This document shows, piece by piece, positions 16,134-24,243 of a DNA stretch of 64,000 nt. The first letter of the stretch is position 1; each line of letters begins with the position of its first letter. The stretch spans positions 1 through 64,000 of the forward strand of contig NZ_CALSFS010000015.1 in NCBI RefSeq assembly GCF_943736985.1. Reading direction: 5' to 3'. The position numbers and the translations under genes are program-made. The notes under the pieces were generated by a model. The model saw only the letters and a list, made by a program, of their open reading frames with translations. It was not told where the DNA came from and made no database searches. This stretch comes from Clostridium sp. Marseille-Q2269 (GTDB lineage Bacteria; Bacillota; Clostridia; Clostridiales; Clostridiaceae).

Positions 16134-16176
16134 ATGGTGCACCGGGCAGGATTCGAACCCGCGGCCAACTGGTTCG
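16134..16176. repeat. left attachment site (displaced tRNA 3' end)
   Basis: A 43-bp copy of the anticodon-loop-to-CCA part of tRNA-Arg(ACG), matching 23491-23533 except for one base (CGGCC versus CGACC). It lacks a 5' half and is not a tRNA gene. Confidence 0.92.
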
Positions 16177-16552
16177 CGACGTGCAGTTTTATAATGTTTT
16201 AAAATGCCTTCAAATCCGCTTAAATACTCATTCCATTTTTTAGTTAGTATTAACTTATACCTGTTTATTTTAAGCTATAAGGGGTAAAAAAAGGGGTAAA
16301 AATCAATATTACTTTTCATTGATAAATCCAATAAACATAACATTTATATGCATATATAAAAAAACGTAAAAATAATAAATAAAGGGTAAAAAAAATAATA
16401 TTTAAAAATATCAATATTTAGTGTACTTAGAGTACTGTACTATATAAAACCTAGTAATACCAATGTCTTAAAGTGTCAGTACACTAACTTTTTTACTGTA
16501 CTTTTAGAGTACTTAGAGTACTGTCAATATAATATTATCATATATATGTGAC
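16177..16552. other. non-coding left arm of the element
   Basis: No ORF. It holds a GGGGTAAAA pair (about 16279-16302) that reappears at the right end (about 23416-23437), and the GTAC-rich repeats at 16421-16524. Both are likely integrase arm or replication sites. Confidence 0.6.
16421..16524. repeat. GTAC-rich repeat cluster, left
   Basis: Contains GTGTACTTAGAGTACTG (16421-16437), AGTGTCAGTACACTAA (16472-16487) and AGAGTACTTAGAGTACTGTC (about 16506-16524). The first is the exact reverse complement of 22166-22182 in the right cluster. Confidence 0.75.
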
Positions 16553-16612
16553 AAAAATAGTAGATAAAAAGCTAATTTATATGCAAATTTTTAGCTTTTA
16601 TCTACTATTTTT
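16553..16612 (-). terminator. terminator of the capsid operon
   Basis: A long stem of about 20 bp (16553-16575 / 16591-16612) with T5-6 on both flanks, beyond the cos-like region downstream of the capsid gene. Confidence 0.75.
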
Positions 16613-16734
16613 TAGGTATATTCTTTAATAGATTTCATTGTATATTTTATTAGCAAACCTATATATTTCAAAGGGTTATCCCTATTTTTCATGCTAATTT
16701 TATACCTTTAAGCCCCTCCTTTCCTGCTATTTTT

Positions 16735-16823
16735 TCTCACGCATGCGAGAGAGTTGTTTTGTCGTGCCTACTACCCGTTCTCCCCATACTAAAAATTTTT
16801 TTCATTTTTTTGACCCGGGGTAC
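16735..16823 (-). other. cos-like region next to the capsid gene
   Basis: On the minus strand GTACCCCGGGTC (16823-16812) is followed by an A/T-rich spacer, GTATGGGGAGAACGGGTAG, and an 18-nt imperfect palindrome around CGCATGCG (16735-16752). It is much more G+C-rich than its surroundings and encodes nothing. It reminds me of the cohesive-end regions next to terminase genes of Firmicute cos siphophages. That likeness is from memory and needs a search. Confidence 0.45.
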
Positions 16824-16860
16824 TTACCATCTTTCCTCATTTAATATAGGTTTCTTCTGT

Positions 16861-17976
16861 TTAACTTTCTACTATTTCTATTTTGCAAATATGATTTTCT
16901 CTAATTGGCAACACATCTGCTCTAACCATTACACGCATTAATATAGTTCCTTTTTTTATATCATTCATTACCTTAAAATCTATTTGATTTCTTATACCAA
17001 CTGCAACAGCATTACTATCCATTACTAATACATGTTTAGGTTTCAATCCGTTACTTTCTATTTGAGTAAGGTTGCCATAAAATACTGGAGTTTGTATGTA
17101 CTGTCCTGTACTGTCTTTTAATATTTGTAGGCTATATAATTCATTAGGATTAATTCCAATTGTGTCAGGCTCTCCGTTTTCTTTTGATATTTCAAGTCTT
17201 GCTTTTGCTACCATATCATAATCAACACTTGACACTTGTATCTTTTTAATATCTACATTATCCATTATCCCATTAGGATAAACACCTTCTTTAGTTGATG
17301 CATTACTGTTTGTATATAAAAAATTATTATCTAAAGCTTTTGCAACTGCATCAGAAAAAGCTTTCATTAAAATATTTTCTATTTGGTAAACATCTTGTAT
17401 ATCTTCTTCAGCTACTTCAACATAACCATAAAGTGTTTTTGCTACTAAATCAACTGGCTTTAACCCTAATGAAGTATTCTTTCCTACTGCTCCACGTTCT
17501 TTAAAATCTAGTTCCATATCCTCATCAATTTTCCCTATACGAACCGTTCCAGTTTCCATAGGTACTATAGGACAATTGTTTAATAAAACTGACTTTTGAC
17601 ATGCGTTATAAATTATGTCAGCTGATATTCCAATAGGTGCAATTACACTCCCATCTGTTCTCTTTTGTATTTCCTGTTTTATATCTCCATTTTTTAATAA
17701 TACTTGTTGCGCAAAATTAGTAAAAGACATACCATCTTTAGCACCAAATTTCCTCTTAAAATCTGATTTACTCATTTTAGCAGCCTTAATTCCATTTTCC
17801 TTAATTGAATTAATTTTCATGCTTTGTTTTACTACTCCTTCTTCGCTTGAATTAGATGTACTAGCATTTTCTATAAGATTTATAAATGCATCTGCCATTG
17901 CTCCTTCATCTGTGCTTTGTAGAGCTTTTTGAATTTCTTCTTTAAATTCTTGTTTTAATATATCTTTACTTCTCAT
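16861..17976 (-). CDS. phage major capsid protein, HK97 family
   Basis: A 371-residue protein with the HK97-type order: a helical, charged N-terminal part (about 1-105) like a delta/scaffold region, then the core (IAPIGISADIIYNACQKSVLLNNCPIVPM), the spine-helix/P-domain segment with FSDAVAKALDNNFLYTN, and the A-domain strands near the C-terminus (HVLVMDSNAVAVGIRNQIDFKV). It would form the shell of an icosahedral head. Last gene of the leftward operon, 20 nt after the scaffold-like gene. GGGAGG lies 13 nt before the ATG. No portal or protease gene accompanies it. Confidence 0.85.
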   Translation of the reverse strand: MRSKDILKQEFKEEIQKALQSTDEGAMADAFINLIENASTSNSSEEGVVKQSMKINSIKENGIKAAKMSKSDFKRKFGAKDGMSFTNFAQQVLLKNGDIKQEIQKRTDGSVIAPIGISADIIYNACQKSVLLNNCPIVPMETGTVRIGKIDEDMELDFKERGAVGKNTSLGLKPVDLVAKTLYGYVEVAEEDIQDVYQIENILMKAFSDAVAKALDNNFLYTNSNASTKEGVYPNGIMDNVDIKKIQVSSVDYDMVAKARLEISKENGEPDTIGINPNELYSLQILKDSTGQYIQTPVFYGNLTQIESNGLKPKHVLVMDSNAVAVGIRNQIDFKVMNDIKKGTILMRVMVRADVLPIRENHICKIEIVES

Positions 17977-17996
17977 AGACTTAATAAATCCTCCCT

Positions 17997-18326
17997 TTAT
18001 TTATTATTTATATAATCATTAAATGTTACTTTTTCAACTTCTTTATTTATTGGTGATGAATAACCACTCGCCGGTGTAATCCCAGTAATTTTTGGCTTTT
18101 GTTCTATTGCATTAATTATATTTGAAAATCCCTCCAAAGTTTTGTTGTCATATTCATCACACATTTTTGAAAATAAATCTTCATTTATCATATATCCTTT
18201 ATTTGATACTGCTCCTTTAAATCCATTAATAGCTTTTTCTCTTTCTTTCCCGGCTATCATTTTTTCATATTCTGCTTTATAATCAATTTCCTGTTCTATA
18301 TTTTGATTTTTTATTTCATTTTCCAT
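17997..18326 (-). CDS. small phage protein, possibly scaffold-like
   Basis: A 109-residue charged protein: predicted helix at about 8-35 (EQEIDYKAEYEKMIAGKEREKAINGF), a central helical part, and a Pro/Gly/Ser-rich tail ending VTFNDYINNK. Its position directly upstream of a capsid gene is that of many scaffold genes, but no homology is recognised. The start is ATG at 18326, after GAGGAGG, 2 nt beyond the upstream stop; the longer start at 18350 would put the Shine-Dalgarno inside the gene. Confidence 0.6.
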   Translation of the reverse strand: MENEIKNQNIEQEIDYKAEYEKMIAGKEREKAINGFKGAVSNKGYMINEDLFSKMCDEYDNKTLEGFSNIINAIEQKPKITGITPASGYSSPINKEVEKVTFNDYINNK

Positions 18327-18328
18327 GC

Positions 18329-18592
18329 TTAATATTCCTCCTCTTCCCATTGGTTACAATTGACTATTGGCTTATTACTATTACTTTTATAACCTATTTT
18401 ACTGCATTCCCTTTCATATATAAGAACACCCATAGCGCTTTCTACAACGGGAGTATTATTATATTTACAAGTCACACAGGTTTTATTTTTGGTATTCCAC
18501 CAACACCTTTCTTCATGCTTTTCCATCGCACTTTTATTTATTAATCTTTTTTTATTGCAATGCTCACACTGAAAGATAATCCTTTCTTTCAT
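18329..18592 (-). CDS. small Cys-rich (zinc-finger-like) element protein
   Basis: An 87-residue protein with FQCEHC near the N-terminus, then HEERCWW, CVTCKYN and later Cys residues, suggesting one or two zinc-binding knuckles. Function unknown; it could be a regulatory or assembly factor. The start is ATG at 18592, 9 nt after AAGGAGG; the upstream ATG (18616) lies before that site and overlaps the previous gene. Confidence 0.6.
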   Translation of the reverse strand: MKERIIFQCEHCNKKRLINKSAMEKHEERCWWNTKNKTCVTCKYNNTPVVESAMGVLIYERECSKIGYKSNSNKPIVNCNQWEEEEY

Positions 18593-18608
18593 TTTCTTTA
18601 TCCTCCTT

Positions 18609-18926
18609 CTAATCATCTATATAAAAAATAATTTCTCGCCCTACTTCTTCTAAATAGTTTAAATCTGTTAATCCTTTTATAACTCCTTGCTTAAACATAT
18701 ATTTTTTTTCTATTGTTAACGATGAAATTAATGTTTGTGTAAATTCCTCTATTAAGTCATGATGTTCTTTTGGTAAAATCTTATATAAATTTGTTTCTAA
18801 TTCATTATACTTCTCACTAAGTTCTAAATATTCTTGAATTTTTTCTAAATTAGTTACGTTCTCCTCTAAACGATGAAATTCGCTTTCTATAACTTTATTT
18901 ATAATATTTTTTAATACTTTATACAT
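18609..18926 (-). CDS. hypothetical helical element protein
   Basis: A 105-residue, mostly helical acidic protein (KIQEYLELSEKYNELETNLYKIL, HHDLIEEFTQTLISS, FKQGVIKGLTDLNYL). The pattern resembles small clostridial mobile-element proteins of unknown role. AAGGAGG precedes the ATG. It stands between the primase gene and the small Cys-rich gene, in the same leftward operon. Confidence 0.65.
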   Translation of the reverse strand: MYKVLKNIINKVIESEFHRLEENVTNLEKIQEYLELSEKYNELETNLYKILPKEHHDLIEEFTQTLISSLTIEKKYMFKQGVIKGLTDLNYLEEVGREIIFYIDD

Positions 18927-19010
18927 TATTTTTTCCTCCTTGCATTTTTCGCTTCAATAGGATAAAATAAAGTTGGATTTGTAGTTCGTTCCTATCGGAA
19001 TGGACTTTTT

Positions 19011-21203
19011 TTATTTAAATGGAAAAATCCCATCTTTTATTTCTTCAATATCATTAATTTCAATATCAAGATAATATCCAACACTATTACTCTTTTTCTG
19101 TTTTATTCCAAAACTTGATAATTGCCTTCCAAAGTGAGTTGGATTCATAGGTATTATATTGTTTGATATGCACCAACTATCATAGACCTTGTAAACATCA
19201 CCTTTAGGAATTTTAATACCCTTCTTAGGCACTAAACTTATTTTTTCTTTAAAGAAAGCATATGCACTGTCAACTTCTTCTCTATATTCTTCCATTTCCT
19301 GTTCAGCCGCTTGGCTTTTAGTAATTTTCCATTTATTAGCTTTAATTCTTTGTAATCCTTCATAAGCCCACATAAAAACTATGTCTAACTCTTTATTTAT
19401 TATTTTGTCTGCTAGCTCAGTATCCTTCACCTTATCACATATACCCTCCGCAACTTCTTTCTCTGTACCAAAGGAAGTATTAAAAGGAATTATTATGGGT
19501 CTTCTGAAAAATCCTGTGGACTTATCCACTGCACTTGGCATACGGTTTAATCCAAAGAACATAGTCATATTAAAACCTAACCTAACTAAATCCTTATTTT
19601 TTCTATTTACTGTTACAGGTTCACCACATACCATTGATTTAAAAAATCCATGTATTTTTTTACCACTTAATTCATCATCACGCACTATATTGACATGTTT
19701 ACCTTCTGCAGCTGATATTGTAAAATCTCCGCCGAAATCACCCAATCCTATACCACAAATACACCTATTATCGCCTATTAAAGCCTCCTGTATATCAAAG
19801 GCTACACTTTTACCATTAGAACCTTCACCCTTGTATATAAAACTGTTTTGAATCTCTCTAGCGTGAGGAGATAACATAAGCCCCCATGTTTCCTGTAGCG
19901 TTATTACACTGCCTTTATCAAGTGTACTATCTAAAAACTTTTTAAACTCTGAATCAGTAAATCTATCTTCCCAGTCAGTTATATAATTGGCTTGAAATTG
20001 GACCTCTAACTTATACTCGGGACTATGTGATAAGAGTTTGTTATTCTCTATATCAATAATTCCATTTAAACAATTAATATAATTCTTTTCATCATTCACC
20101 TTTCTAGCGTCTGTACTGCTTAACATTAAAAGCTCCGCAAAATTCTTTGACTTAGTAACTGTTTTGTCTTTGTCATTTATGGCATATTCAAAAAACATTT
20201 TCTGGACTTCTTTCAGCTCCTTATATTCATAAAATCCTTTTTCAGTATCATATATAAACCATAAATTACCTTTTATATAACTGGGTTGTTTTTTTATTAT
20301 GTGCTGAACCAGTGCCCAATTGTTAACATTGCCTTTATCATCACAATAAGAAGGCAACACATATTTAAGAACACTATCAACCTTTCTTTCTACTTCTTCA
20401 AAAGTTAAAGGCGGCATAAACCAACAATTGTTATACATTATAGCCTGAGGTAATAACATTTCCTTTTTTCTCATAGTAGGATTATTTTTAATCATGTACC
20501 CTAGCCAACTTATTAAAGTGTTATCTCGACCTTCGCCCTCTTTTACAGATTTATAATATTTATTAGCCTTAAAATCCTTTACCGCTACACTTTGACCCTC
20601 TGAACTCTCTTTCTTTTGAGAAGGTTTATCTAAATTTATTAACTTATCAAATAAGGCTTGTGGCATATCTTGAATATCATGTGTATTTGGTTGATATTCC
20701 TTAATACTTTTATCAATCTTCACCTTACTATTAGGTAATACAATTAACCCACCATCTGTTCTTATATCTATTCCTGGAGCATAGTCAGCTTTATTTTTTA
20801 ATCCTTCTTTATATTTAAAATATAAATGTACACCACCTCGTGGAGTTATTACTGCAAATGTATTATTTATTTTTTCCTTATCCTCTTTTGAAAACTCTTT
20901 AATGAAATCTCTAAAATTATCAATTCCATTAATATCACTATTCCCATGATTAATATCAATATCTATAACCATAATATTGCTAATTTTTCCACATACAAGA
21001 GAGAACCCTGTAACTTGTCCACCTCTTACTTTTCCATCTACTTCCTCTTTATATATTGAGGATACTTCTTGAAGTTCATTTTGATTTTTAATCCAATAGT
21101 CTTTATTGCTCCACGGAACTACTGGTATTTTTGAGTAGTTTACTAATGGTACTATTGGGAATAATTTTTTTTCTATAATTGAAGTAAAATTTTCCCCTGT
21201 CAC
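19011..21203 (-). CDS. primase-polymerase / SF3 helicase (P4-D5 type)
   Basis: A 730-residue replication protein. The N-terminal prim-pol domain has the catalytic DID (81-83) and TPRGGVHLYF with His126, then GIDIRTDGGLIVLP. A D5-like linker is followed by an SF3 helicase with Walker A GSNGKS (461-466), Walker B-like RDDE (508-511) and the sensor FGLNRMP (550-556). A winged-helix C-terminus closes it. It would start replication of the excised element. The start is GTG at 21203, 5 nt after AGGTG and 8 nt after the upstream stop. Confidence 0.9.
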   Translation of the reverse strand: MTGENFTSIIEKKLFPIVPLVNYSKIPVVPWSNKDYWIKNQNELQEVSSIYKEEVDGKVRGGQVTGFSLVCGKISNIMVIDIDINHGNSDINGIDNFRDFIKEFSKEDKEKINNTFAVITPRGGVHLYFKYKEGLKNKADYAPGIDIRTDGGLIVLPNSKVKIDKSIKEYQPNTHDIQDMPQALFDKLINLDKPSQKKESSEGQSVAVKDFKANKYYKSVKEGEGRDNTLISWLGYMIKNNPTMRKKEMLLPQAIMYNNCWFMPPLTFEEVERKVDSVLKYVLPSYCDDKGNVNNWALVQHIIKKQPSYIKGNLWFIYDTEKGFYEYKELKEVQKMFFEYAINDKDKTVTKSKNFAELLMLSSTDARKVNDEKNYINCLNGIIDIENNKLLSHSPEYKLEVQFQANYITDWEDRFTDSEFKKFLDSTLDKGSVITLQETWGLMLSPHAREIQNSFIYKGEGSNGKSVAFDIQEALIGDNRCICGIGLGDFGGDFTISAAEGKHVNIVRDDELSGKKIHGFFKSMVCGEPVTVNRKNKDLVRLGFNMTMFFGLNRMPSAVDKSTGFFRRPIIIPFNTSFGTEKEVAEGICDKVKDTELADKIINKELDIVFMWAYEGLQRIKANKWKITKSQAAEQEMEEYREEVDSAYAFFKEKISLVPKKGIKIPKGDVYKVYDSWCISNNIIPMNPTHFGRQLSSFGIKQKKSNSVGYYLDIEINDIEEIKDGIFPFK

Positions 21204-21211
21204 TATATCAC

Positions 21212-21400
21212 CTACTTTTTAGTACAGTTTTTATTTGCCCATTCTTGGAGTAATTCACGATTTAAAAAATATTTTGAACCAACTTTCATACAGGGAAAAT
21301 CTTTCCTTTTCAGTAAATCTTGATACATCATATTTTTTCCTACTCCTAAAACCCTCATACCCTGTGTAGGGCTTATTAATATAGAATTGTTATCTTCCAT
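21212..21400 (-). CDS. excisionase/AlpA-like DNA-binding protein
   Basis: A 62-residue winged-helix protein: GMRVLGVGKNMMYQDLLKR is the helix-turn-helix and FPCMKVGSKYFLNRELLQEWA the wing, as in excisionase/MerR-like helix domains. Such proteins direct excision or activate the divergent operon. TGGAGG precedes the ATG. First gene of the leftward operon, divergent from xre across a region with operator-like palindromes. Confidence 0.78.
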   Translation of the reverse strand: MEDNNSILISPTQGMRVLGVGKNMMYQDLLKRKDFPCMKVGSKYFLNRELLQEWANKNCTKK

Positions 21401-21451
21401 TTTATTACCTCCATATATTTATTTTTTTTAGATATGCTTTAATTTAATATT

Positions 21452-21497
21452 GTTCTTGATGAACGATATTGGTATGTTTTGCGAACTTTTAAGTTCG
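21452..21497. promoter_or_regulatory. operator-like palindromes between excisionase and xre
   Basis: GTTC-N5-GAAC (21452-21464) and a perfect 16-nt palindrome CGAACTTTTAAGTTCG (21482-21497) share the GAAC/GTTC half-site. They lie in the 224-bp divergent region where a CI-type XRE repressor should bind. Confidence 0.6.
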
Positions 21498-21624
21498 GTA
21501 TATGTATATAATAAATCATTTAAGATTGTTTTGCAAGTATTTTTTTTAAAAATAGTGCTTTTTTGATTTGTTTAGGATATACTATAGATATAAAAATACT
21601 GTTTAACACTAGGAGGGAAGCAAA

Positions 21625-22080
21625 ATGAGTGTTGGAGAAAACATAAAAAAATATAGAAAAGAAAAGAGATTAACTCAAAAACAATTGGCTAAAGAAATAA
21701 ATTTATCGGAAATCAGTATAAGAAGATATGAAAAAAATATAAGCACTCCTACAATAGAAATTATAAAAAAAATTGCTGAAAAACTTAAAGTACCAGTTTC
21801 TTCTTTATTAGGTATTGAAAAGCTTGGTACTAGTGACACATATGTTAGTGATGAAAATAAAATTGCTCATGTATTCTCAAAGAAGGTTCTTGATGAATCG
21901 AAGTTTGGTACTGAAGATATTGAAACAATAAAATTAATTAGTGCTTATATAGGGCGTCTTGCTAATGAAAAAGGTATGAAATTTATTGAAGATTGGGGTA
22001 CCATAATTCAAGATGTTAAAGACATAATAAACGCAGACCTTGAAAGAGAAAAAATTAAATTGGGCACTAAAATAGATTAA
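21625..22080 (+). CDS. XRE-family transcriptional regulator
   Basis: A 151-residue repressor-like protein with an N-terminal helix-turn-helix at about residues 5-60 (RLTQKQLAKEINLSEISIRRYE), then LKVPVSSLLG typical of Cro/CI-type proteins and a helical C-terminus without a visible Ser-Lys autocleavage site. It probably keeps the leftward replication-capsid operon silent. Without self-cleavage, derepression might need an antirepressor, possibly from a helper phage (inference). TAGGAGGG precedes the ATG; int follows after 143 nt. Confidence 0.85.
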   Translation: MSVGENIKKYRKEKRLTQKQLAKEINLSEISIRRYEKNISTPTIEIIKKIAEKLKVPVSSLLGIEKLGTSDTYVSDENKIAHVFSKKVLDESKFGTEDIETIKLISAYIGRLANEKGMKFIEDWGTIIQDVKDIINADLEREKIKLGTKID

Positions 22081-22183
22081 CAGTACGCTAAGTACACCAA
22101 AGTACCATGCTTTTTTAGTGTACTGTTAGTGTCTTAATCCAGTAATATCAATGGTTATATGGATTCAGTACTCTAAGTACACT
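22081..22183. repeat. GTAC-rich repeat cluster, right
   Basis: Contains CAGTACGCTAAGTACACC (22081-22098), AGTGTACTGTTAGTGTC (about 22117-22133) and CAGTACTCTAAGTACAC (22166-22182), the last an exact inverted copy of 16421-16437. It fills the xre-int gap. Confidence 0.75.
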
Positions 22184-22223
22184 AATTTTTAAAAAACTAC
22201 ACCTATTAGAGGAGGTCTTTTTT

Positions 22224-23387
22224 ATGGCTAAAACAACTTATAAAAAGAAAGTCATAAATGGTAAAGAATATTATTTCTATAGGCTAAGACATAAAAACAT
22301 TAGAAAACCTAAAGATATTTATGGATCTACTGTAAAAGAACTTGATGCAAAAATTAAAAATATAACTAAAGAACTGGACAATAATATTACTGATAATAAA
22401 AAATATTATGGAGCATTTTTAAAGGACTGGTTATATAACACCCATATGGTAAATAAAAAACCTTCTACTAACGAAAGGTATGACGGTATTTTTAGAAATT
22501 ATATTGATAATAGTCCTATATTTGAAATAAGATTGAAAGACTTAAGTGCATCAGATATACAGAAGTATTATAACAGTTTAATAAGTAAAGGAAAAAGTAT
22601 AGCAACTATAAAAAATCTTCACAAAATCATATCTCCTAGCATTAGATATGCATATGATAATAATATGGTTATAAAGGATTTTTCTAGAGCTATAGTAATA
22701 CCTAAAGAAAAGGAAGAAAAAAGGCTAAAAAAAGTTAAAAAAGTAGAGCCATTTACTTTGGAAGAACAAATGCAGTTTATTGAAGTCATAAAAGGTCATG
22801 AATTAGAAATGTTATTTATTACTGCTCTTAATACTGGCTTAAGACAAGGAGAATTATTCGCTCTTACATGGAATGATATAGACTTTAAAACTTCCTGCAT
22901 AAATGTTAATAAATCATATAAAAGCGTAAAGAATATATCTACTGGCAAGTATGAAAGTATTATACAAACTCCTAAAACTAATAAAAGTATTAGACTTGTT
23001 CCTATACCAGTACCTTTAGTAAACAAATTAAAACAACATAAACTAGTACAAAAGGCTCAAAGATTAAAGATGGCTAATTTATATGAAAATAACACACTTG
23101 TTTTTTGTAATAAGTTTGGCAAGTATTTAGATAGTGGCAATGTACTAAAGAAATTCAAGAAAATACTTAAAAATAATGATCTAAAAGATAGAAAATTCCA
23201 TGATTTAAGGCATACTTATGCCACTAGATTATTTGAATTAGGAGAAAACCCGAAAACGGTGCAGGACTTGTTAGGGCATAGTAATATTTCCATTACACTT
23301 GATACCTATACTCACGTATTAGAAAGCATGAAGAAAAAAGCAGTATCAAAATTGAATGATTTATATATATCTATGGGGGTAAAATAG
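22224..23387 (+). CDS. tyrosine-type site-specific integrase
   Basis: A 387-residue integrase with an arm-binding N-terminus, a SAM-like core-binding domain (about 65-160) and a catalytic domain with the full set R207, K251, H326-x-x-R329, H352 and Y362. It recombines the 43-bp core in tRNA-Arg(ACG). GAGGAGG precedes the ATG. Its stop is about 100 bp from the attachment site in the intact tRNA, the usual position. Confidence 0.95.
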   Translation: MAKTTYKKKVINGKEYYFYRLRHKNIRKPKDIYGSTVKELDAKIKNITKELDNNITDNKKYYGAFLKDWLYNTHMVNKKPSTNERYDGIFRNYIDNSPIFEIRLKDLSASDIQKYYNSLISKGKSIATIKNLHKIISPSIRYAYDNNMVIKDFSRAIVIPKEKEEKRLKKVKKVEPFTLEEQMQFIEVIKGHELEMLFITALNTGLRQGELFALTWNDIDFKTSCINVNKSYKSVKNISTGKYESIIQTPKTNKSIRLVPIPVPLVNKLKQHKLVQKAQRLKMANLYENNTLVFCNKFGKYLDSGNVLKKFKKILKNNDLKDRKFHDLRHTYATRLFELGENPKTVQDLLGHSNISITLDTYTHVLESMKKKAVSKLNDLYISMGVK

Positions 23388-23458
23388 CCCTCTTTTTTTA
23401 TATAAAAAACCTATAAAGGGTAAAAAAGGGGGTAAAACTCTATTTATAATAAAATAAA

Positions 23459-23490
23459 AAACCGCTAAAACTTAGTAGTTTCAACGGTTT
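23459..23490 (-). terminator. element-borne terminator for tRNA-Arg(ACG)
   Basis: AAACCG (23459-23464) pairs with CGGTTT (23485-23490), with an inner AAAAC/GTTT pairing, followed on the minus strand by TTTTTTATTTT. It lies just inside the element's right end, so the element supplies the tRNA with a new terminator. Confidence 0.7.
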
Positions 23491-23533
23491 ATGGTGCACC
23501 GGGCAGGATTCGAACCCGCGACCAACTGGTTCG
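23491..23533. repeat. right attachment site within tRNA-Arg(ACG)
   Basis: The 43-bp core matching 16134-16176 apart from one base; it covers the 3' half of the functional tRNA. Confidence 0.92.
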
Positions 23534-23568
23534 TAGCCAGCTACTCTATCCAACTGAGCTACCGATGC
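23492..23568 (-). tRNA. tRNA-Arg (ACG)
   Basis: A 77-nt cloverleaf with encoded CCA, acceptor GCATCGG/CCGGTGC and anticodon loop CTACGAA giving ACG, the substrate of TadA (gene at 10961). Its 3' half is restored by the integrated element. Confidence 0.97.
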
Positions 23569-23618
23569 AAATTTAACATACTTATTTTAACATAAAACTT
23601 ATTATAAATCAATAATAA

Positions 23619-23648
23619 AAAGCATTTAACTTCAGAGTTAAATGCTTT
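23619..23648 (-). terminator. terminator after tRNA-Ser pair 1
   Basis: A 12-bp stem (23619-23630 / 23637-23648), 6-nt loop, then TTTTTATT on the minus strand. It touches the tRNA CCA end. Confidence 0.85.
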
Positions 23649-23738
23649 GGCGGAGAAAGAGGGATTTGAACCCTCGCACCGGTTACCCGATCTACGCCCT
23701 TAGCAGGGGCGCCTCTTCAGCCACTTGAGTATTTCTCC
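23648..23738 (-). tRNA. tRNA-Ser (GCT), copy 1
   Basis: A 91-nt class II tRNA with encoded CCA, long variable arm and anticodon loop CTGCTAA giving GCT. Confidence 0.97.
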
Positions 23739-23758
23739 ATAGCTTACTTGTATAAAAA

Positions 23759-23849
23759 TGGCGGAGAGATAGGGATTCGAACCCTAGGTACGGTCACCCG
23801 TACGCCGGTTTTCAAGACCGGTGCCTTAAACCAACTCGACCATCTCTCC
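23759..23849 (-). tRNA. tRNA-Ser (TGA), copy 1
   Basis: A 91-nt class II tRNA with encoded CCA and anticodon loop CTTGAAA giving TGA. First in a two-tRNA transcript. Confidence 0.97.
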
Positions 23850-23884
23850 ACGTTTTTTTCAATTTTCACTTGATCACATAATAA

Positions 23885-23913
23885 ATTATAACAACTAACA
23901 TAATATATGTCAA
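23885..23913 (-). promoter_or_regulatory. promoter of tRNA-Ser pair 1
   Basis: Perfect TTGACA (23913-23908), 17-nt spacer and TATAAT (23890-23885) on the minus strand, 36 nt before the tRNA. Confidence 0.85.
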
Positions 23914-23984
23914 CATATTTTTTAAATTTTTATATAAAAATACACAATATATTGTATATCTTAACAAAATTGTATAAAAAATGA

Positions 23985-24014
23985 AAAGCATTTAACTTCA
24001 GAGTTAAATGCTTT
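23985..24014 (-). terminator. terminator after tRNA-Ser pair 2
   Basis: The same 12-bp stem as at 23619-23648, followed on the minus strand by TTCATTTTTTATAC. Confidence 0.8.
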
Positions 24015-24104
24015 GGCGGAGAAAGAGGGATTTGAACCCTCGCACCGGTTACCCGATCTACGCCCTTAGCAGGGGCGCCTCTTCAGCCACTTGAGTACTT
24101 CTCC
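24014..24104 (-). tRNA. tRNA-Ser (GCT), copy 2
   Basis: As copy 1 except that the 5' acceptor strand reads GGAGAAG instead of GGAGAAA, giving a G-U pair at the base of the acceptor stem. Anticodon GCT; CCA encoded. Confidence 0.97.
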
Positions 24105-24125
24105 ATAGCTTACTTACATAAAAAA

Positions 24126-24216
24126 TGGCGGAGAGATAGGGATTCGAACCCTAGGTACGGTCACCCGTACGCCGGTTTTCAAGACCGGTGCCTTAAACCA
24201 ACTCGACCATCTCTCC
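24126..24216 (-). tRNA. tRNA-Ser (TGA), copy 2
   Basis: Identical by eye to copy 1; anticodon TGA; CCA encoded. Confidence 0.97.
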
Positions 24217-24243
24217 ACATATTTAACTTTGTAACGAAAATTA

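Follow-up and report, generated by a model that had tools for sequence, protein, structure and literature searches.

The window analysed here is a stretch of 64,000 nucleotides from Clostridium sp. Marseille-Q2269 (contig NZ_CALSFS010000015.1, positions 1 to 64,000), and positions 16134-23533 of it hold a compact element of 7,357 bp (about 7.4 kb) with its own integrase, regulators, replication gene and one capsid gene. A sequence-only reading of this DNA had proposed a self-replicating phage satellite that supplies a single capsid-type protein and borrows portal, terminase and tail from a helper phage; judging from its genes, this is the likely look of the element.

The element is bounded by a 43-nt attachment (att) repeat (16134-16176 and 23491-23533) that copies the 3′ part of a tRNA-Arg(acg) gene. 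The proximal copy lies inside the intact tRNA gene (23491-23568, minus strand, with the tRNA itself at 23492-23568), and the two copies, previously described as exact, consist of 30 and 12 identical nt around one mismatch. As in phage-inducible chromosomal islands (PICIs), this specific att site is accompanied by an integrase, here of the tyrosine family (22224-23387, plus strand; Phage_integrase 6.3e-29; 71-75% identical to those of the related loci L007, L009 and L011). Likewise PICI-like are an Xre-type repressor gene beside it (21625-22080, plus strand; HTH_3 4.4e-15), divergent from the gene for an AlpA/excisionase (Xis)-like HTH_17 protein (21212-21400, minus strand; HTH_17 6.5e-8), and the element's own replication module, a primase-polymerase/D5-type helicase recognised by Pfam (19011-21203, minus strand; Prim-Pol 1e-12, D5_N 2.8e-7, DUF5906 1.9e-12; 60-75% identical in L007-L011). 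Three small genes separate it from the intact gene for an HK97-type capsid protein of 371 aa (16861-17976, minus strand; PF05065 2.9e-18 over residues 109-367). This gene set and its coordinates are as the sequence-only reading gave them.

All element genes are open and uninterrupted in a list of open reading frames (ORFs) of at least 40 aa. The only ORFs of at least 300 aa are those for the integrase, the primase and the capsid protein, which leaves no room for a gene for the large terminase subunit (TerL) or the portal. In agreement with the claim that the element lacks terminase, portal and tail, family scans of all eight proteins (three small ones without a confident family) recognised no terminase, protease, portal, tail or lysis gene in 16134-23533, and no encapsulin match either. 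The capsid homologue, with its delta-like N-terminus, is the only recognised head gene.

The capsid gene and the adjoining packaging-type stretch

Sequence comparison indicates that the capsid gene is chimeric, with a 5′ end of the type found in candidate helper prophages and a shell domain from a clade of satellite capsids. Residues 1-36 are identical at 16-20 of 36 positions to the capsids of four prophages (in genomes G078, G089, G100 and G152), whereas the shell matches the same four at 45-55 of 238-256 positions; the score of this N-terminal match was 100, and none of 100 shuffles scored above 65. At the DNA level, a patch covering ten bases before the start codon plus 31 codons (17883-17986) is 75% identical over 104 nt to the start of the capsid gene of prophage L161 (E 4e-13). 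When residues 1-108 were searched against 206 Clostridiaceae genomes, the set used for all Clostridiaceae searches below, the top nine matches had E values of at most 4.3e-4, and the eight that were opened (all except G089:C66) were N-termini of prophage capsid-type proteins; matches in L162 and L163 were dropped because they lay inside non-capsid ORFs. Named phages gave chance matches only (E 6).

In a tree built from 37 shell domains, one branch (support 100/99.7) sets nine lone satellite capsids apart, and the helper-type prophage group is placed far away from them. The satellite clade includes the window capsid, C. beijerinckii, four further Clostridiaceae and the C. difficile plasmid pCD630; capsids from complete packaging cassettes, a group of 285-aa capsids and prophage capsids all fall outside it. 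For the ordinary capsids we read 24 matching loci (L054-L077) for a capsid ORF, and eight of these entered the tree along with four loci from the N-terminal search; L092 and L093 were left out. The tree shows that these shells are separate from those of the phages found; it is not proof that shells of this kind are absent from all phages. In tblastn against 50,697 phage records the window capsid had no match at 1e-5, and scanning viral contigs with the single capsid sequence was likewise without a hit, while matches were obtained in 16 plasmid records, all from Clostridioides and including pCD630. A profile built from the window, L010 and pCD630-type capsids recovered five intact relatives in the Clostridiaceae set with E values below 1e-75 (G002, G004, G030, G066 and G199), compared with 7e-15 and weaker for prophage capsids, as well as a contig-end fragment (G002) and a remnant (G005). 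Among 391 class-wide genomes only the G005 remnant appeared at E values up to 1e-20. This remnant of a lone-type capsid gene (G005:C1:1395667-1396055; L087, L124) contains stop codons, so such elements also decay.

Relaxed selection on the capsid, which the sequence-only reading had named as a sign against its proposal, was not seen in the pCD630-type shells: all three pairs gave ratios of nonsynonymous to synonymous change (dN/dS) well below one (0.18, 0.20 and 0.19; 0.35-0.44 in the N-terminal part), which shows purifying selection on the shells of this branch.

Just after the capsid gene lies a feature that the sequence-only reading had missed. A noncoding stretch at about 16700-16845 (minus strand) is 73-79% identical to the DNA that precedes the gene for the small terminase subunit (TerS), downstream of an HNH gene, in one clostridial prophage group. 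It looks like a cos-type packaging region. Preserved in it are the last codons of what was once an HNH gene, stretches of the form CCCCGGGTC-AAAAAAATGAAAAAA and GACAAAACA...GTGAGAAAAAAT, and GAAAGGAG, among them a ribosome-binding stretch of the type that precedes TerS. A DNA search of the Clostridiaceae genomes returned seven strong matches in six genomes (E 8e-22 to 2e-9), followed after a gap by one partial match in G136 (2e-6) and then by 1e-4. All seven lie directly before a gene in the TerS position with an HNH gene upstream, which is adjacent to the match in L214, L215, L217 and L160, reduced to a 53-aa ORF in L161, and separated from the match by one extra ORF in L216 and L218. Labels were checked against Pfam for TerS, TerL, portal, protease and capsid in L161 and for HNH, TerS, portal and capsid in L217, and rest on blastp in the remaining prophages. 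In a control with 200 shuffles, L160 and L161 scored 76 and 73 against shuffled maxima of 36 and 38; L159 was barely above (36 vs 35), L008 was just above (34 vs 33) at another place of the window, and the phage phiCD08011 and the L007 and L011 cassettes were not above shuffles. The N-terminal and the packaging match occur in the same prophage in G100 (two prophages), G150 and G152. With the whole element as query, blastn against the phage records gave one 43-nt match, at the att/tRNA end. As a separate observation, the capsid protein of prophage L217 (10488-11939, 483 aa) carries a C-terminal S-layer SbsC-type domain by Pfam.

Related islands and plasmid pCD630

The sequence-only reading had suggested a search for related elements with flanking att repeats, and relatives with the same gene order and such repeats were found. 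The primase survey behind this comparison left out ten weak viral matches (L012-L021) and the weak loci L032-L047. The integrase, Xis and primase of the window element are 57-71% identical to those of L007, L008 and L011, which on this chassis carry a cassette running from portal to TerL, with no tail gene recognised. By Pfam, the L008 cassette holds portal, prohead protease, capsid, connector, HNH, TerL and head completion genes, and its TerS, without a terminase match, was assigned by position. Oceanirhabdus L009 (NZ_CP115913, 7233-16147), at a tRNA-Arg(acg) gene beside tRNA-Ser genes, has a major capsid protein, TerS and TerL and no portal, and from its gene content is a satellite with a partial packaging set. 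The presence of portal or terminase genes beside the capsid gene in relatives would have pointed to decay; they are indeed there, in full in L007, L008 and L011 and in part in L009, but the capsids there are not of the window type.

The capsid gene stands alone on the chassis in C. beijerinckii L010 and in L078. In L079 and L080, which also have a lone capsid gene, integrase and Xis are shared and the primase is replaced by a rolling-circle-type Rep, so that replication modules appear to be exchanged on this chassis; L081 is a lone-capsid element with a more distant integrase. Apart from integrase, replication protein and capsid, none of L010 and L078-L081 has an ORF long enough for TerL or portal except for a 314-aa protein in L078, which has no structural-family match. 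Four of the islands (L009, L010, L011 and L078) sit at tRNA-Arg genes, and no tRNA was found at L007 and L008. Bounding repeats measure 33 nt in L010, 39 nt in L079, 19 nt in both L081 and L085, 38 nt in L009 and 48 nt in L011, and are weak in L078 (13 nt) and L080 (12 nt). The L079 noncoding stretch shares 57 nt at 96.5% with the HNH-TerS junction of a tailed prophage, L219 (HNH, TerS and capsid by Pfam); the noncoding stretch of L080, apart from its match to itself, gave no packaging match that rose above the rest (the next best, 1.3e-9, was part of a continuum), and the N-terminus of the L079 capsid had no match in phages.

Upstream of several lone capsid genes we noticed genes resembling sigma factors or late regulators (L079 4497-5231, L081 7962-8363, L080 8995-9531, L078 9366-9956 and L010 5184-5597, those of L078 and L010 being weak matches only); none was recognised upstream of the capsid gene in the window element. 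Another set of loci pairs a capsid gene of 282-285 aa with a preceding gene of 186-198 aa (L085 7822-9265, L089 8737-10177, L090 9534-10955 and L091 3200-4657), the latter a DUF4355/phrog_172 scaffold in L085, L089 and L090. No TerL was recognised by blastp in these four; L089-L091 are unbounded, and L089 has a 463-aa protein without a known family.

Like the window element, the pCD630 family combines phage packaging DNA with a solitary capsid gene whose shell falls in the same clade. pCD630 (L001, NC_008226) differs in being a circular plasmid: its replication gene is of helicase type, no integrase is annotated, an HNH gene is kept, and the candidate helpers are Sherbrookevirus phages. Patches of Sherbrookevirus DNA occur in it at the start of the capsid gene (489-626) and at HNH-TerS (1944-2791). 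The latter, an 848-bp block that runs from HNH across the HNH-TerS junction into the beginning of the gene in the TerS position (annotated as a hypothetical protein in phiCD08011), is 95.9% identical to phage JD033 and was found by megablast in four of the 50,697 phage records; the same four are the best N-terminal matches among 10 records. Compared with Sherbrookevirus phages of C. difficile, the pCD630 capsid is identical at 28-29 of the 30 N-terminal residues and at 22-27% of its shell. Over the first 66 nt of the gene, 64 positions match three C. difficile phages, compared with 53 and 54 for satellite relatives, a pattern that suggests a local exchange. From these features, pCD630 looks like a phage satellite in plasmid form. 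The listing of pCD630-like elements as plasmids in PMC6807378 is accompanied by the remark that distinguishing phages, plasmids and intermediates may need experiments. The helicase of this family occurs in 54 plasmid records and the capsid in 16; pCD-WTSI1 shares the helicase and has no annotated capsid gene, and its noncoding DNA gave one weak phage match. In L005 (IMGVR_UViG_2740892348_000004, 1574-2314), a pCD630-type element, a ClpP-type protease gene overlaps the capsid start, as in phages.

Candidate role of the satellite capsid protein

The sequence-only reading had presented the combination seen here as an intermediate design, and its novelty is not supported, since the pairing of a capsid homologue with a helper packaging site is already known in staphylococci. 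The Staphylococcus aureus pathogenicity island (SaPI) SaPIbov5 carries the phi12 cos site (PMC8569155, PMC5052747) and encodes Ccm, a 355-aa capsid homologue that has an 87-aa delta domain, is cleaved and is 24% identical to the helper protein. Ccm is confined to the pentamers, does not assemble into capsids by itself and turns prolate heads into T=4 ones (PMC8569155); by this precedent a satellite protein need not make a whole shell. Like such cos-type SaPIs, the window element combines a presumed helper-type packaging site with one HK97-fold capsid homologue that has a short delta domain, and it has its own integrase, regulators and replication (PMC8569155, PMC5052747 for SaPIbov5). It differs in size (7.4 vs about 14 kb), in being clostridial, in having no recognised cargo, and in placing a helper-type N-terminus on a shell unlike the helper's; a PDB profile search with the window capsid returned no chain labelled Ccm at E values up to 1. 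PICI features plus a capsid homologue are also reported for PmCI172 and EcCICFT073, the latter with cos sites (PMC6092414; PICIs with capsid homologues are also covered in the review PMC6893505). Unlike the window element, both are gammaproteobacterial, and EcCICFT073 also has a decoration protein.

Capsid-forming PICIs (cf-PICIs) provide a further comparison: the integrase, Xis and primase are related to those of the cassette-bearing L007, L008 and L011, whereas genes for portal, protease, TerS and TerL are absent from the window element, whose capsid belongs to a different clade.

We therefore favor, as the probable explanation, a cos-packaged, PICI-like satellite of Clostridiaceae whose capsid homologue acts like Ccm of SaPIbov5; this reading ranks first because the element has the same pair of tools as SaPIbov5. 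When a helper of the matching prophage group is induced, the satellite would excise and replicate, and the helper terminase, with HNH, would cut at the copied packaging site. With its helper-type N-terminal (delta) segment the satellite capsid protein would enter the assembling helper procapsid, where it would probably replace part of the helper protein and redirect head size, as Ccm does. The redirected heads would fit the satellite DNA while helper heads were spoiled, and the helper's portal, protease, neck and tail would complete the particle.

A broader proposal, which we put forward tentatively and would rate at somewhat under even chances, is that one lineage of satellite capsids has been refitted to unrelated helpers by swapping two short pieces, the 5′ end of the capsid gene (the delta segment) and the HNH-TerS packaging junction, while the shell was kept, and that this lineage occurs in islands and plasmids alike, which would make pCD630 a satellite of Sherbrookevirus. 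If so, a satellite could change its helper by two short exchanges, the well-studied plasmid pCD630 would become a testable satellite with named candidate helpers, piracy by capsid homologues, known in staphylococci and in a few Gammaproteobacteria, would be extended to clostridia, and the part played by the HK97 delta domain in helper matching would become directly testable. What appears to be new is the clostridial clade, its chimeric N-terminus of helper type and the view of pCD630 as a satellite: among the papers listed by a search of the open-licence literature (subscription papers fell outside its scope), none dealt with clostridial lone-capsid satellites or with pCD630 as a satellite.

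Several observations weigh against these interpretations. For the stretch at 16700-16845, the cos assignment follows the example of SaPIbov5, which carries the cos of its helper, and is presumed from position. L158 was not above shuffles in the packaging comparison, in L214 the portal-like ORF is truncated and no capsid ORF was seen across the 18 kb, and the L215 capsid is split over two ORFs. The two helper-type pieces do not track each other closely: of the seven genomes with the nine N-terminal matches, three have a strong cos match and G075, G078, G084 and G089 have none, and among the six cos-match genomes G101 and G165 have no N-terminal match at E values up to 1, and that of G136 is 0.023. 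In a comparison with 14 prophage loci, neither a packaging patch nor an N-terminal match above shuffles was obtained for L010 and L081, the packaging patch of L078 was weak (E 7e-5), and the N-termini of L080 and L079 were marginal (97 vs 88 and 73 vs 73). Only one of the three non-self DNA matches opened for the L079 stretch is a packaging junction; those in L220 and L221 lie elsewhere. In the tree, the window capsid sits on a long branch (1.33), and because the lone capsids were gathered by their similarity to one another, monophyly of their clade is partly by construction. For pCD630, the lead of the phages over the satellite relatives has shrunk at 90 nt (78-79 vs 73-77 of 90), and over the whole N-terminal part synonymous divergence (dS) from the phages (0.66-0.75) exceeds that from L005 (0.25). 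Finally, particle-protected DNA of a pCD-WTSI1-like plasmid is described in PMC10993401, which reports no capsid gene in its non-phage elements; we dropped this result as proof for the capsid-bearing members, and since pCD-WTSI1 has no annotated capsid gene, the particle data are indirect support only.

The satellite protein might instead replace the shell entirely, building a capsid by itself on the helper portal and using the helper's protease, terminase and tail. The protein is full length, with a delta-like N-terminus and a complete shell domain of a distinct clade, and the scaffold gene that precedes the 282-285-aa capsid gene in L085, L089 and L090 would be odd beside a minor component; those scaffold-plus-capsid pairs, however, belong to another capsid clade than the window's, and Ccm occurs in pentamers only, makes no capsids alone and cannot complement a deletion of the helper capsid gene. 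We regard full replacement as the second choice and as rather unlikely. Less likely again, and in our view improbable, is that the homologue merely poisons helper heads while the element travels as concatemers in normal helper capsids. Ccm does block its helper, and EcCICFT073, which has a capsid homologue, appears to be packaged in full-size capsids, but mutants of the EcCICFT073 capsid gene still interfered, so interference is no sure role for such proteins, and the helper-type N-terminus and copied packaging stretch of the window element point instead to particle formation.

Decay of a prophage or capsid-forming island after loss of portal, terminase and tail seems very improbable. L007, L008 and L011 do have the same integrase/primase chassis with a full packaging cassette, L009 has it with a partial one, and broken relatives exist, namely the G005 capsid remnant with stop codons and L084, whose primase is split into two ORFs. 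The window capsid, though, is of another clade than those of the chassis cassettes, and the window element, pCD630 and L079 have all retained a packaging junction while lacking terminase genes. Nor does the element resemble a defective prophage: its frames are open, and only the last HNH codons are left, in the packaging stretch. The sequence-only reading had cited intact frames against decay, and we concur, because of the shell clade, the purifying selection in the pCD630 branch and the retained packaging stretch. The Ccm-like assembly partner thus remains our preferred explanation.

Small genes, repeats and the insertion site

The gene directly upstream of the capsid gene (17997-18350, minus strand) encodes a 117-aa protein that is 63% identical to a 108-aa protein of Oceanirhabdus L009. 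That homologue lies directly upstream of a different capsid gene and weakly matches a "virion structural protein" (E 0.014); a role of the 117-aa protein as a capsid-assembly helper would be a guess, and no family match backs a name. Further upstream are genes for a 95-aa zinc-finger-like protein (18329-18616, minus strand; sub-threshold XAF1_C, 0.0024) and a 105-aa protein (18609-18926, minus strand; sub-threshold DUF6809, 2e-4) with homologues in L007, L011, L084 and L085.

Two kinds of short repeats lie near the element ends. Beside the distal att, a GGGGTAAAA-type direct repeat at 16272-16307 is 86% identical to 23408-23443 and is possibly an integrase arm site; similar repeats occur near both ends of L079 and L080. 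Two GTACTTAGAGTACT repeats within 16423-16522 have inverted copies at 22082-22095 and 22167-22180, and the same pattern is found at both ends of L009 and L010; these could be sites for a regulator, an origin or integrase arms.

At the insertion site, the order psd - tRNA-Arg(acg) - tRNA-Ser occurs without an element in a relative, L098. The psd gene was matched in 190 of the 206 Clostridiaceae genomes, with a top identity of 67% among the matches listed. Beyond the tRNA-Arg gene, a pair of tRNA-Ser(gct) and tRNA-Ser(tga) genes has been duplicated in tandem in the window (23608-24224), the two copies being 96-98% identical and 366 bases apart.

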